A DNA stretch of 64,000 nucleotides from an uncultured Phocaeicola sp. GTDB taxonomy: Bacteria > Bacteroidota > Bacteroidia > Bacteroidales > Bacteroidaceae. The notes under the pieces were generated by a model. It worked only from the letters and a program-made list of their open reading frames with translations, was not told the DNA's origin and ran no database searches. Location: positions 1 to 64,000 of the forward strand of contig CANQSM010000006.1 of the NCBI GenBank assembly GCA_947626525.1, read 5' to 3'. Of the stretch, positions 33,900 to 37,785 are shown piece after piece. The stretch's first letter is position 1; every line of letters begins with the position of its first letter. The position numbers and the translations under genes were made by a program.

Positions 33900-34112
33900 A
33901 TGGTATCACATTTGAAAGGTGGAAAAATTCATGGCCGGACAGCGACAAATATTTTAGCCCAAACAGGTAATTTAAAGATATGGGCTGCAAAGATTGATAC
34001 GGACAAAATGAAAGCCCCGTTCTTCTTAATGGTGTTGGCGGCAACGGGAAAATTCGCCTATCGGCGTGCAGACGGGGTTTATGTAGTTCCCGTTGGATGC
34101 TTAAAAGACTGA
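33900..34112 (+). CDS. Small ORF of unknown function (doubtful)
   Basis: A 70-aa frame starting ATGGTATCAC and ending VYVVPVGCLKD. No domain is recognised. The second half overlaps interleaved inverted repeats (34011-34095), so the conserved unit may be the DNA or RNA rather than a protein. No ribosome binding site is obvious. It follows glsB by 35 bases. Confidence 0.25.
   Translation: MVSHLKGGKIHGRTATNILAQTGNLKIWAAKIDTDKMKAPFFLMVLAATGKFAYRRADGVYVVPVGCLKD
34011..34095 (+). repeat. Interleaved inverted repeats (possible pseudoknot)
   Basis: AAAGCCCCGT (34011-34020) can pair with ACGGGGTTT (34072-34080) with one bulge. CAACGGGAA (34042-34050) pairs perfectly with TTCCCGTTG (34087-34095). CGCC/GGCG (34055-34066) forms a small hairpin inside. 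The two larger pairings alternate (A-B-A'-B'), the order of an H-type pseudoknot. Confidence 0.45.
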
Positions 34113-34203: not shown

Positions 34204-34235
34204 TTTGGCGTTTGGGTTAAAAAGTTCTATTTTTG
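34204..34235 (+). promoter_or_regulatory. Promoter of the candidate structured RNA
   Basis: TTTG (34204-34207), 20 bases, then TATTTTTG (34228-34235): a near-perfect Bacteroides -33/-7 promoter. Transcription would start at about 34240, exactly where strong secondary structure begins, and no ORF starts for another 380 bases. Confidence 0.6.
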
Positions 34236-34238
34236 CCT

Positions 34239-34547
34239 CCACGCAGTTACCCCAACAGGGTGTGGGGTAGGGCGTGGTGATATTATAAAAGAGGCGTTTA
34301 CCAGAACGTAATCTTCTTTCGCTCAAATCTCGCAAGTTTGAAACTACAAGGAGATACGGCAACGGAGAACGTCCACATGAGATGTTTATAGATTCTTTAA
34401 ACTTCTTTCCCGTTTTGGGTGCGGGGAAGATTGTTTGGGTTTATTATACATCTTGGCGTGGGCTAACTGCGTTGCTTATCCTTGTAGGAAGGCGATGCGA
34501 GAGCCTGAGCGGAGGGATGAGCGAAGTAAGTTTTCCCCCGCCTTTTT
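34239..34547 (+). ncRNA. Candidate structured RNA or long leader
   Basis: Just past the promoter a nested stem forms: CCACGC/GCGTGG (34239-34244 with 34272-34277) enclosing ACCCCA/TGGGGT. ACGCAGTTA (34241-34249) is also complementary to TAACTGCGT (34464-34472), so a long-range pairing that competes with the first stem could close a 230-base domain. TCAAA/TTTGA forms a hairpin inside. The unit ends at a terminator-like stem GCGG(A)GGG/CCCCCGC with TTTTT (34509-34547). It could be a stand-alone RNA of about 305 bases or a regulated leader of the HTH gene at 34620. It does not fit RNase P, tmRNA or 6S RNA as I know them. Confidence 0.4.
34509..34547 (+). terminator. Intrinsic terminator before the HTH gene
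   Basis: GCGG(A)GGG pairs with CCCCCGC, followed by CTTTTTG. It lies 73 bases before the HTH start codon and so ends the candidate RNA, or attenuates the HTH gene. Confidence 0.5.
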
Positions 34548-34619
34548 GTATTGTGGCATTTCGTATCATATATAAGGTAAGACCCGGGCGGGGAAACTTG
34601 GGCAGAAGGAATCTGTTCT

Positions 34620-34844
34620 ATGATACCGATTGGGCAACTGATTCAGACAAAATTGAACGAAAGGGGGAGGACGGTCGTCTGGCTTTCCCGGCAGATTCCA
34701 TGTAGCCGGCAGAACCTTTATAAAGTTTTCAAGAAAGATTGCATCGATACGGAAATGCTCATGCGTATTTCCCGGATATTGGAGTACGATTTCTTCCAGC
34801 ATTATTCTTCCGATTTCAAAAATAAAGCAGAGTGTCACCAATAA
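34620..34844 (+). CDS. Small helix-turn-helix DNA-binding protein
   Basis: A 74-aa protein that is almost entirely one XRE-like HTH domain: IGQLIQTKLNERGRTVVWL, then the recognition-helix region PCSRQNLYKVFKK, then DTEMLMRISRILEYDFFQHY. Small proteins of this sort are common in Bacteroides. Its stop codon (34842-34844) lies inside the 38-bp palindrome that follows. It is preceded by the candidate structured RNA and terminator and followed by the coiled-coil lipoprotein gene; a target is not known, and the palindrome is an obvious candidate operator. Confidence 0.7.
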   Translation: MIPIGQLIQTKLNERGRTVVWLSRQIPCSRQNLYKVFKKDCIDTEMLMRISRILEYDFFQHYSSDFKNKAECHQ

Positions 34845-34870
34845 GTTTACATGTAAACTTATTGGTGACA
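34833..34870. repeat. Perfect 38-bp palindrome
   Basis: TGTCACCAATAAGTTTACA is followed at once by its exact reverse complement, with no spacer. It contains the HTH gene stop codon. There is no T run after it, so it is a poor classical terminator. It could be an operator or a cruciform-forming site upstream of the lipoprotein gene at 34963. Confidence 0.8.
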
Positions 34871-34962
34871 TTTCGTTTGGAGTTATACTTCTATTTCTGT
34901 TTTTCTTTGTAGCGTTTTAAGAAATAGGACTCTTAACTATAATCTTTTAAATTTATAAATGT

Positions 34963-37785
34963 ATGAAGAAAATCACTTATTTGGTTGTTTCCCTGTTGCT
35001 GATGGGAACGACACCAATGCTTACCGGTTGTATTGACAACGATGAACCGGCGGGAATTGAAGAACTTCGCGGCGCGAAATCCGAGCTGTTGAGAGCCAAA
35101 GCGGCTGTGGAACAAGCCAAAGTGGCTACGGAACAGGCCAACGCGGCGTATAGAAACGCCGAGGCTGAATGGATGAAAGCCAAGGCTGCTTATGAAGCTG
35201 CTCAGGCCGCACGGGTCAACGCTGAGACTGAGATTGAAAAGGCTGAAGCAGAGCAAGCGCTGGAAGAGGCAAGGCAAAAAGCGGAACAGGCCGCGAAGGA
35301 CTGGGAGCTTTCGTATAAGGAAGCCGAAGTGCGTTATCAGGCACTGTTGGTTGAGTTGGCGACACAAAAGTCTATGGCTATAGATGAGGCTTTGCGTTCT
35401 TACAAGGCTGCGGTGACGGAGGCAAAAGCGTCTATGGAGACGAAGGCTGAAGCTTTACGTAAAGCACAGCGAACATACAATGAAGCGTTGGCTGATTGGG
35501 AAGAAGACGAGGCTAAAAAAGAACTGTATACACGTGGATTACAGAAAGAGGTTACTCTGGCAGAGCGTGGTGTAGAAGGCGCTGAGTTGGCTTTGGCCGA
35601 GGCGAAGGAGGCTTACGAGGAAGCTCAGAATATGGAATTGGACGATGTGGCTGTGAAGCGCGATGAATTGGAGGAGAAAATAGCCCAATTAGATAAAGAG
35701 GTATTCGATTTGAAAGTTACCATGTCTGAGAAAATATGCGAATATGATCAGACTTTAGGTGCTGAATACAGACAACATCAAAAGGAATTGCTTGCTTTGG
35801 GGAAGGAAAACATCCAAATCCCGGCTTTCTCTTTGAAATTGAACGGTGCCCTTCCTGATGGATTAGAAGGGTCTGTTGATGCAGAAGCTGCTGAGTATTC
35901 GTTGGATGCCCCAGGTGCCTATGGAAATCGTAAGAAGGCTCTTGAAAAGTTGCAGGAAAAAGTGTTGTCGTGGGTGCGTGATGGTAACGATGATTTGTGG
36001 ACCAAAGAACGCATCGCTAAGAAAAAGAAGGACATCGAAGAACTTACTAAGACGTTGAATGATACTAAACAAACTTGGAAGGAGGTTGTGGCCGCTTACA
36101 ATACCAACCAGGCGGATGTGACCGATCCTACGAAGATAACAGGTTATGCGGAACTGAAAAAGGGAGTGGATGATTATAATGCGGCTGCGACGGCATGGAA
36201 TGCGGTGAATAAGAAAATAGCAGACGCAGAGAGTGCAATAGAGGCTGCAAAGAAAACGTATGAGGCGAAAGTGGACGAATTAAAAAAGGCAATGAACGCT
36301 GCTTATGCAGCAGCCGATGCTACTTGGTGGGAAACCGAGCAAAAAATCCCTGAACAGGCTGAATCTGAAGCGAAAGGTCTCCAAAAGGCCGTAGATGATG
36401 CGCAAAAAGCATTGGATGCTGCGGACAAGGCTTTAACTCAGGACCCTGATAACAACGATTTAAAACGGGCAAAGTTAGAAGCTGAAATTGCACTGGAAGA
36501 TGCTCAGAAAGCTTGGAAAAGTGAGGGTGAACTGTTGGCTTCTTTGAGAGCGGAAAGTACAGAAGCACGTCTCGCTGCGAAAGCAAAGGCGAATACAGAC
36601 TATAATACAAGTGAGGCAGCTGCGAAAGGTACACGGGATAAGGTTGAAGAAGAACAGCAAGCCATTATTAAGGGATTGAAGGAAGAAGGTGGTGAGTTAG
36701 AGGTTGCCACTAAAACATTGAATAAAACGGTCGATGCTATCTGTGATGATGGTAAGCTTTTTGATACGTTCAATAAAAAACGGGCTGATACGTTCAAAGA
36801 AGAACAGAGCATAACTTTGAGCGAGTTGAATATCAAGAATCTCATGTATGCTGCAGCATATCGTTCTGTTGATACCGCAGGTAATCCTTATGCAGAAGAA
36901 GTGGATATCAAAGAATTGACAAATTTGGATAAGGCTGCCTTGACACGTGCTATCCAGACTCTTTCAAATGCCTTGTATGGTACGGCTATTTTCAAAACCA
37001 ATGAATATGGTGATTTTGAGGCTCGTTTGACTGAAATCCCTGAGGCTACAATTAAAGAGTATGCACAGGAAGCCTTGAAGAAGGATGAGGATGAGATTGT
37101 AGCAGGTAAAAATGGTAATATTAGAGATAATACCGTCTCTTTGAAGGATTATACGGACGTGTATGGCAAATATGGTATTACAGGTCAGTTGATGTCGGAA
37201 AATGAATTGGTAGCTCTGGCAGAGAAATGGATTACCAACGATGACGATGTGATGGCTATGGTTGAGGCTGTACAAACAGCTTTGGAAGAGTTGACTGCAA
37301 CGTATGAGGCTGCAAACGATGCCGTTGAGGCGAAGGAGGAAGCTTTGAAAGATGAATGGGAGGCATTGATGGCCAAGATTGAGGAGGCAAAACAGCCGGC
37401 AGAGGAAGCGGTAGCCAAAAATGAACCTCTTGAAAAGTTACTTGGCTACTATAAGCGGTGGATTAAAGAGTATGAGGAAAATAATGCTACTAACGAAGCT
37501 GGGAAGCCGTGGTTTGATAAAGAAGCCCTTGATGGGTATGTTGAATTATGCAAAAGCAAGATTGAGGACGCAGAAAATGACTTGTATGATGCCAATACGA
37601 ATTTGATGCAGGCTAAGCAGAATTTGGCTGATTTTAAATCAGGCAAGTTAACCGCTTATAAAATGGCAGCGCAAAGACTTGAAGATGCACAAATTGCATA
37701 CGAGAGTGCTGAGGAGGCTTACAATGCGGCACTTACTGAATTGAACAACAAGATTGCCGAGCTGTCTGTATCGACTGCTGAATAA
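34963..37785 (+). CDS. Long coiled-coil lipoprotein of unknown function
   Basis: A 940-aa protein with a signal peptide and lipobox MLTGC (Cys23) followed by IDNDEP; acidic residues right after the Cys resemble the Bacteroidetes surface-export signal. From about residue 35 the sequence is dominated by Ala, Glu, Lys and Gln with heptad spacing (KAAVEQAKVATEQANAAY, AEAEQALEEARQKAEQ), so long coiled coils are expected. Breaks occur near 265-315 and 600-740. The family is not recognised. A beta-barrel gene follows at 23 bases and may be a partner. The very high Ala and Glu content could also give false similarity to unrelated coiled coils. Confidence 0.85.
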   Translation: MKKITYLVVSLLLMGTTPMLTGCIDNDEPAGIEELRGAKSELLRAKAAVEQAKVATEQANAAYRNAEAEWMKAKAAYEAAQAARVNAETEIEKAEAEQALEEARQKAEQAAKDWELSYKEAEVRYQALLVELATQKSMAIDEALRSYKAAVTEAKASMETKAEALRKAQRTYNEALADWEEDEAKKELYTRGLQKEVTLAERGVEGAELALAEAKEAYEEAQNMELDDVAVKRDELEEKIAQLDKEVFDLKVTMSEKICEYDQTLGAEYRQHQKELLALGKENIQIPAFSLKLNGALPDGLEGSVDAEAAEYSLDAPGAYGNRKKALEKLQEKVLSWVRDGNDDLWTKERIAKKKKDIEELTKTLNDTKQTWKEVVAAYNTNQADVTDPTKITGYAELKKGVDDYNAAATAWNAVNKKIADAESAIEAAKKTYEAKVDELKKAMNAAYAAADATWWETEQKIPEQAESEAKGLQKAVDDAQKALDAADKALTQDPDNNDLKRAKLEAEIALEDAQKAWKSEGELLASLRAESTEARLAAKAKANTDYNTSEAAAKGTRDKVEEEQQAIIKGLKEEGGELEVATKTLNKTVDAICDDGKLFDTFNKKRADTFKEEQSITLSELNIKNLMYAAAYRSVDTAGNPYAEEVDIKELTNLDKAALTRAIQTLSNALYGTAIFKTNEYGDFEARLTEIPEATIKEYAQEALKKDEDEIVAGKNGNIRDNTVSLKDYTDVYGKYGITGQLMSENELVALAEKWITNDDDVMAMVEAVQTALEELTATYEAANDAVEAKEEALKDEWEALMAKIEEAKQPAEEAVAKNEPLEKLLGYYKRWIKEYEENNATNEAGKPWFDKEALDGYVELCKSKIEDAENDLYDANTNLMQAKQNLADFKSGKLTAYKMAAQRLEDAQIAYESAEEAYNAALTELNNKIAELSVSTAE

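Follow-up and report, generated by a model that had tools for sequence, protein, structure and literature searches.

A widespread leader-like RNA of Bacteroidaceae with competing stems and copy-specific loop pairing, consistent with transcription attenuation

Does the short region between a promoter and the start codon of a small gene (34228-34620 of the window, i.e. of the whole 64,000-nucleotide stretch of uncultured Phocaeicola sp. DNA analysed here) produce an RNA that acts by itself, or one that governs the gene behind it? The region comprises a Bacteroidales-type promoter, an RNA of ~310 nt with a terminator at its end and, finally, the start codon (Table 1). An earlier note, made from the sequence alone, had claimed a promoter, a nested stem, a 9-base complementarity between distant strands and a terminator hairpin with a T run, and had wavered between a switch and a stand-alone regulatory RNA. 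These elements were recovered: the promoter (TTTG and TATTTTTG) is of the Bacteroidales type, the nested stem folds by itself better than any of 200 shuffled sequences, ACGCAGTTA (34241-34249) has its exact complement in TAACTGCGT (34464-34472), and the terminator stem is followed by its T-run. For the full RNA the folding energy is -133.4 kcal/mol, much lower than for shuffled sequence (z = -8.9; 0 of 100 shuffles equal), and the motif TAnn(n)TTTG occurs 20-120 nt 5' of P2 in 110 of the 139 relatives (12.9 in shuffled sequence). Coding potential, named in the same note as a possible refutation, was not found: no reading frame is conserved, and we rejected a coding stretch since one-base indels sit inside conserved blocks.

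Table 1. Features of the RNA region and of the genes downstream of it (window coordinates)
Feature	Position	Strand	Remarks
Promoter, Bacteroidales type	34204-34235	+	TTTG near -33 (34204-34207); TATTTTTG at -7 (34228-34235)
P1, 5' hairpin	34239-34277	+	nested stem 34239-34244/34272-34277 and 34248-34253/34264-34269; z = -3.45 folded alone; 5' strand is strand 1 (34240-34253), which covaries with strand 3
5' domain	34293-34373	+	holds P2, P3, P4, N5, N8 and conserved ACGGCAACGG
P2	34293-34299/34367-34373	+	5' domain
P3	34311-34316/34350-34355	+	5' domain
P4 hairpin	34324-34340	+	loop TCTCGCAAG; 5' domain
N5 and N8 loop segments	34317-34323; 34341-34349	+	5' domain
Conserved ACGGCAACGG	34356-34365	+	5' domain
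P5, hairpin of variable length between the two domains	34380-34453	+	closing bases 34380-34385/34448-34453; sequence and length differ among relatives
P6 5' arm (terminator)	34455-34462	+	pairs with 34535-34542
Strand 3	34460-34472	+	partner is strand 1 (34240-34253); overlaps terminator arm
P7 stem-loop	34474-34522	+	stem 34474-34481/34515-34522; loop pairs with P3 loop
N8'	34482-34489	+	inside P7
P8 hairpin	34490-34506	+	loop GATGCGAGA; inside P7
N5'	34507-34514	+	inside P7
Strand 4	34528-34542	+	includes terminator 3' arm (34535-34542); alternative partner is region 5
Intrinsic terminator T-run	34543-34547	+	TTTTT
Region 5, complement of strand 4	34587-34599	+	between terminator and start codon
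Gene for helix-turn-helix-like 74-aa protein	34620-34844	+	assigned by sequence pattern
Gene for 940-aa lipoprotein, second downstream	34963-37785	+	weakly similar to BT1927-family outer membrane S-layer protein

Copies of the RNA elsewhere did not figure in the earlier note (nor did the pairing of the two loops, the strand beyond the T-run that pairs with the terminator arm, or the downstream gene). After a DNA search of 60 related genomes, 13 of 61 (the window's own included) were seen to carry the RNA in divergent form, the pieces aligned being 72-88% identical. Furthermore, a covariance model built on the 3' domain of an early alignment of relatives, and used for the genome searches, detected relatives in 105 of 151 Bacteroidaceae genomes (1-16 copies each; 11 copies at E <= 0.001 in the window's own genome) and in 44 of the 247 genomes of an order-wide sample. 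In a phylum sample of 296 genomes the sole match was the window's own genome, two other Bacteroidaceae being negative and none of the 293 genomes outside the family being matched (a result that doubles as a false-positive control). Among the named carriers are Bacteroides bouchesdurhonensis, Phocaeicola massiliensis and Xylanibacter rarus, and many carrier MAGs are labelled Prevotella, Muribaculaceae or Parabacteroides. Copy L159 comes from B. bouchesdurhonensis and the copy at L229/L081 from P. massiliensis DSM 17679. The earlier remark that no known RNA family came to mind agrees with Rfam 15, where the RNA (window and six relatives) was unmatched at the gathering threshold and the window region was unmatched up to E = 5. 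A tRNA/tmRNA scan left the RNA unmatched as well (the only hit was a tRNA-Glu elsewhere), and at the sensitivity used it was not found in plasmid, phage and viral-contig collections, which gave no sign of a phage- or plasmid-borne mobile element. For many copies (G162, G063, G124, G157, G112, G173, G077, G008 and others) the contig begins no more than a few hundred bases away and is broken just 5' of the promoter, the picture that a repeated or rearranging flank would give.

The covariation set held 178 sense-strand copies (150 after thinning; ~120-150 divergent copies in individual tests), and a swap test compared each copy's own partner strand with partner strands from other loci, kinship being handled by thinning alone. 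Compensatory variation in these sequences supports P2, P3, P7, the terminator and three long-range pairings. P2 is 98% paired across most of its length (with G-C/A-U/G-U exchange), 96.7% of the cells of the 3' domain pair (37-57% with slid partners), and P7 and P3 reach z = -11.8 and -10.8, respectively, in the swap test. The terminator is conserved throughout (P6 98.5% paired, z = -6.4), with at least five T in the 10 nt past the arm in 147 of 150 relatives. The comparative structure differs from the lowest-energy fold of the single sequence: the one long hairpin of the latter was rejected as a conserved fold, its central pairing (b:c) being without significant covariation while the local P3 and P7 covary.

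Moreover, the competing pairings that had been read out of one sequence covary among divergent relatives. Strand 1 with strand 3 gives z = -17.2 in the swap test (p of about 1e-11 to 1e-12 with GC-matched partners) and shares bases with the 5' hairpin as well as with the terminator arm. The overlap with the arm is an invariant GGG, complementary but unable to covary, and the covariation is still significant with the bases outside the arm alone, as expected of an antiterminator. The 9-base complementarity is thus beyond chance, since it is part of a helix kept by compensatory change in ~150 divergent relatives. Strand 4, in turn, covaries with region 5, a G-run just 5' of the start codon (z = -16.5; p of about 1e-12 with GC-matched partners); at the 90 loci with exactly one G-run the neighbouring pairs exchange T:A, A:T and G:C, and this covariation is therefore free of match choice.

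The P3 and P7 loops pair through three consecutive segments, forming an internal kissing complex of ~20 bp whose sequence is different in each copy (swap test: N8:N8' z = -44; N5:N5' z = -36; P4 loop:P8 loop z = -13.6; two cross-arm control pairings, z = -1.0 and +0.8). In the P4/P8 kissing loops UC occurs with GA 58 times and CU with AG 65 times, crossed combinations being absent (0; p = 1.6e-36); this contingency test superseded a first automatic test for rewired pairs, which was weak owing to a too-loose hairpin finder. Further rewired kissing pairs are UAGCA:UGCUA, UGGCA:UGCCA and UCGCCA:UGGCGA, and distant copies carry fully rewired ones (UUCCAC:GUGGAA, UUGGAC:GUCCAA). An early candidate, the H-type pseudoknot GCGUU:AAUGC, was rejected for want of two-sided changes, the partner of the P8 loop being the P4 loop. 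Among eight copies of the window's own genome self-pairing averages -31.5 kcal/mol (vs. -12.8 kcal/mol with paralogues), and for 117 of 122 copies every other tested partner was weaker than the copy's own. As far as the sequences tell, this orthogonality suits folding in cis amid many paralogues; the complex might also pair homotypically between two molecules of one copy, for which the covariation would be the same.

The next gene lies directly downstream on the same strand in 146 of 156 loci, its start codon most often 62-72 nt past the terminator arm; the orientation of upstream genes, taken as a control, is split 27:25, and the RNA is therefore associated with the downstream gene alone. This context bears on the choice between switch and stand-alone RNA. 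A trans-acting non-coding RNA that merely happens to sit upstream of genes would have its own promoter and a strong predicted terminator, and could well show an elaborate fold and up to 16 copies per genome. For a transcript that ends at the T-run, however, neither a same-strand gene at a preferred distance nor a region 5 that lies beyond the terminator and covaries with its arm would be expected, and we consider a stand-alone RNA unlikely. Of the two options in the earlier note, then, the switch is favoured, given the covarying competing stems and the position and spacing of the next gene, and the stand-alone option is the less favoured one.

The reading that we prefer, and to which we attach a fair degree of confidence, is that the RNA is a cis-acting leader governing the next gene by transcription attenuation; its competing folds would probably decide whether that gene is transcribed. 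In the OFF fold strand 1 would be kept in P1 and strands 3 and 4 would make the terminator, the product being the ~310-nt leader alone. In the ON fold strand 1 would take strand 3, including the top of the terminator 5' arm, and polymerase would read through; strand 4 would afterwards be bound by region 5, and the read-through RNA would stay open. As polymerase reaches region 5 only once it has passed the terminator, the pairing of this region with strand 4 cannot itself block termination. P3 and P7 would lock through the kissing complex, which joins the 5' domain to a stem-loop inside the terminator loop and so is positioned to affect the timing or the stability of the decision, and which probably does so while keeping copies in the same cell from mutual interference. 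We infer the order of these events, a working terminator and the existence of a trigger, which might touch the RNA at the conserved GGCAACGG, at the P4 loop or in the P8 region. Constrained folds (pseudoknot energies excluded) gave -116.1 (OFF) vs. -95.9 kcal/mol (ON) for the terminated RNA and -132.5 (OFF) vs. -125.1 kcal/mol (ON) with region 5, i.e. the computed gap shrinks from ~20 to ~7 kcal/mol upon read-through because strand 4 can pair with region 5. That the OFF fold is computed as the stabler one in the window, pseudoknot energies again being excluded, counts against an attenuator, as do a few copies without T-run and without same-strand downstream gene (L068, L078, L277 and L285).

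The first downstream genes vary widely in kind (BspA-type leucine-rich-repeat proteins, lipoproteins, Big_2 and PEGA proteins, KDO transferase, UpxY antiterminators, and defence proteins, for example a BrxP-like protein and an HKD+SNF2 helicase; Cys-rich radical-SAM targets of TIGR04117 follow 6 of 90 leaders), and since they share no pathway the trigger cannot be read from the targets. The helix-turn-helix-like protein of the window, unmatched in Pfam, NCBIfam and PDB, belongs to a family of 72-80 aa (pattern GQLI..L...GRTV.WLARQL.C.RTNVYKIF.K..ID..LL.RIS) with a homologue directly downstream in 15 of 146 loci (among them L002, L009, L011, L015, L019, L083, L110, L120, L133, L138, L142, L156, L182 and L211), and might either regulate the leader or be regulated by it. 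At the stop codon of its gene lies a perfect inverted repeat (CACCAATAAGTTTACATGTAAACTTATTGGTG, 34832-34871), probably the terminator of this gene or an operator. The lipoprotein encoded next matches NF053619 with E = 9e-23 and 80.8 bits, far below the curated cut-off of 1300. Just 5' of the promoter, a 70-aa reading frame without family matches (33900-34112) resembles, by its sequence, the tail of a larger gene, perhaps one for an ATPase.

The UpxY genes among the targets raise the alternative that the RNA is not a self-contained switch but a site at which a specialised NusG-type (UpxY-like) protein is recruited for processive antitermination. Bacteroides capsule loci have leaders subject to antitermination by UpxY, a NusG paralogue, with premature termination as the control point (PMC13114119, PMC7593976). 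The present RNA resembles them in bacterial order, in its surface-structure operons and in the position of some copies ahead of UpxY genes: in the window's own genome three copies (L070, L071 and L072) directly precede UpxY-family genes (the frame in L071 being broken by stops), and the targets include long, apparently horizontally acquired operons for surface proteins and defence. In contrast to UpxY leaders, most copies have no adjacent UpxY gene, and a fourth, clear UpxY gene of the same genome (C38, above the family cut-off) lacks the RNA upstream; moreover, a single protein need not demand loop sequences that differ per copy. UpxY association as a rule was accordingly rejected, even with three of four own-genome UpxY loci carrying the RNA, and the literature searched on UpxY leaders contained no comparable RNA structure. 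We regard recruitment as a quite improbable account of the family, and as a possible one for some copies.

Many divergent copies with a large inverted-repeat architecture, 2-4 of which end in ..CTT(T/G)AACC in place of the T-run, could also represent a mobile or recombinogenic palindromic DNA element (MITE-like, or a recombination site) whose repeats only resemble RNA helices. We consider this very improbable, as the inverted repeat is flanked on either side by covarying partners that do not belong to it (strand 1 and region 5), conservation extends to promoter and T-run, and the orientation to the downstream gene is fixed. The deviating terminator end was seen in L068 (5080-5090), L078 (5070-5080), L277 and L285, where no same-strand gene lies just downstream and a loosely similar motif (TGATACCA...TTCCC) then follows. 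L277 is otherwise near-identical to L066, which keeps the T-run, and the sequence difference between them suggests a recombination junction.

Returning to the attenuator, we infer that the RNA works in the manner of the trp leader, T-box and terminator-type riboswitches, which likewise are 5' leaders that precede a gene and whose strands form either an antiterminator or a terminator. Unlike in the trp leader and T-box, two loops of ~35-40 nt lock here by a ~20-bp kissing complex private to each copy, an extra strand beyond the terminator pairs with the terminator 3' arm, and the targets have no common pathway. The literature search did not find the present RNA described. Its nearest candidates are Bacteroidetes structured RNAs such as HMP2_1881 (Fremin and Bhatt 2021, PMC8040213), for which that article gives 108 bp, a location near radical SAM genes and expression in 13 of 13 occurrences in faecal samples; taxon, 3'-domain size and radical-SAM neighbourhood are alike, whereas the text of the article describes no long-range structure. 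Such candidates, compared by description only, could be fragments of the present RNA. Bacteroidales-1 (RF01693, a suggested 6S RNA), likewise a Bacteroidales RNA, matched the locus of one copy (L229) at another position, did not match the present RNA and is separate from it. By Rfam 15 and the searched literature the family is apparently new, the nearest candidates (PMC8040213) having been compared by description only.

Bacteroidales are dominant in the human and animal gut. To our knowledge, they do without Shine-Dalgarno-based initiation, and we know of few RNA switches in them. Tentatively, the RNA may constitute a new class of leader, in which a private 20-bp loop lock, orthogonal to every paralogue in the cell, gates the three-way choice between 5' hairpin, antiterminator and terminator, with possibly a single signal sensed by the conserved core and a dozen unrelated operons for surface and defence functions joined in a single RNA-controlled regulon. 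The private loop codes also pose the question of how a dozen copies of a complex RNA fold in one cell without cross-pairing. If the attenuator reading is true, a ~310-nt leader ahead of adhesins, S-layer-like proteins, LPS genes, peptide clusters, capsule antiterminators and defence systems would add a major, so far overlooked level to the control of surface and defence functions in most sampled Bacteroidaceae genomes.
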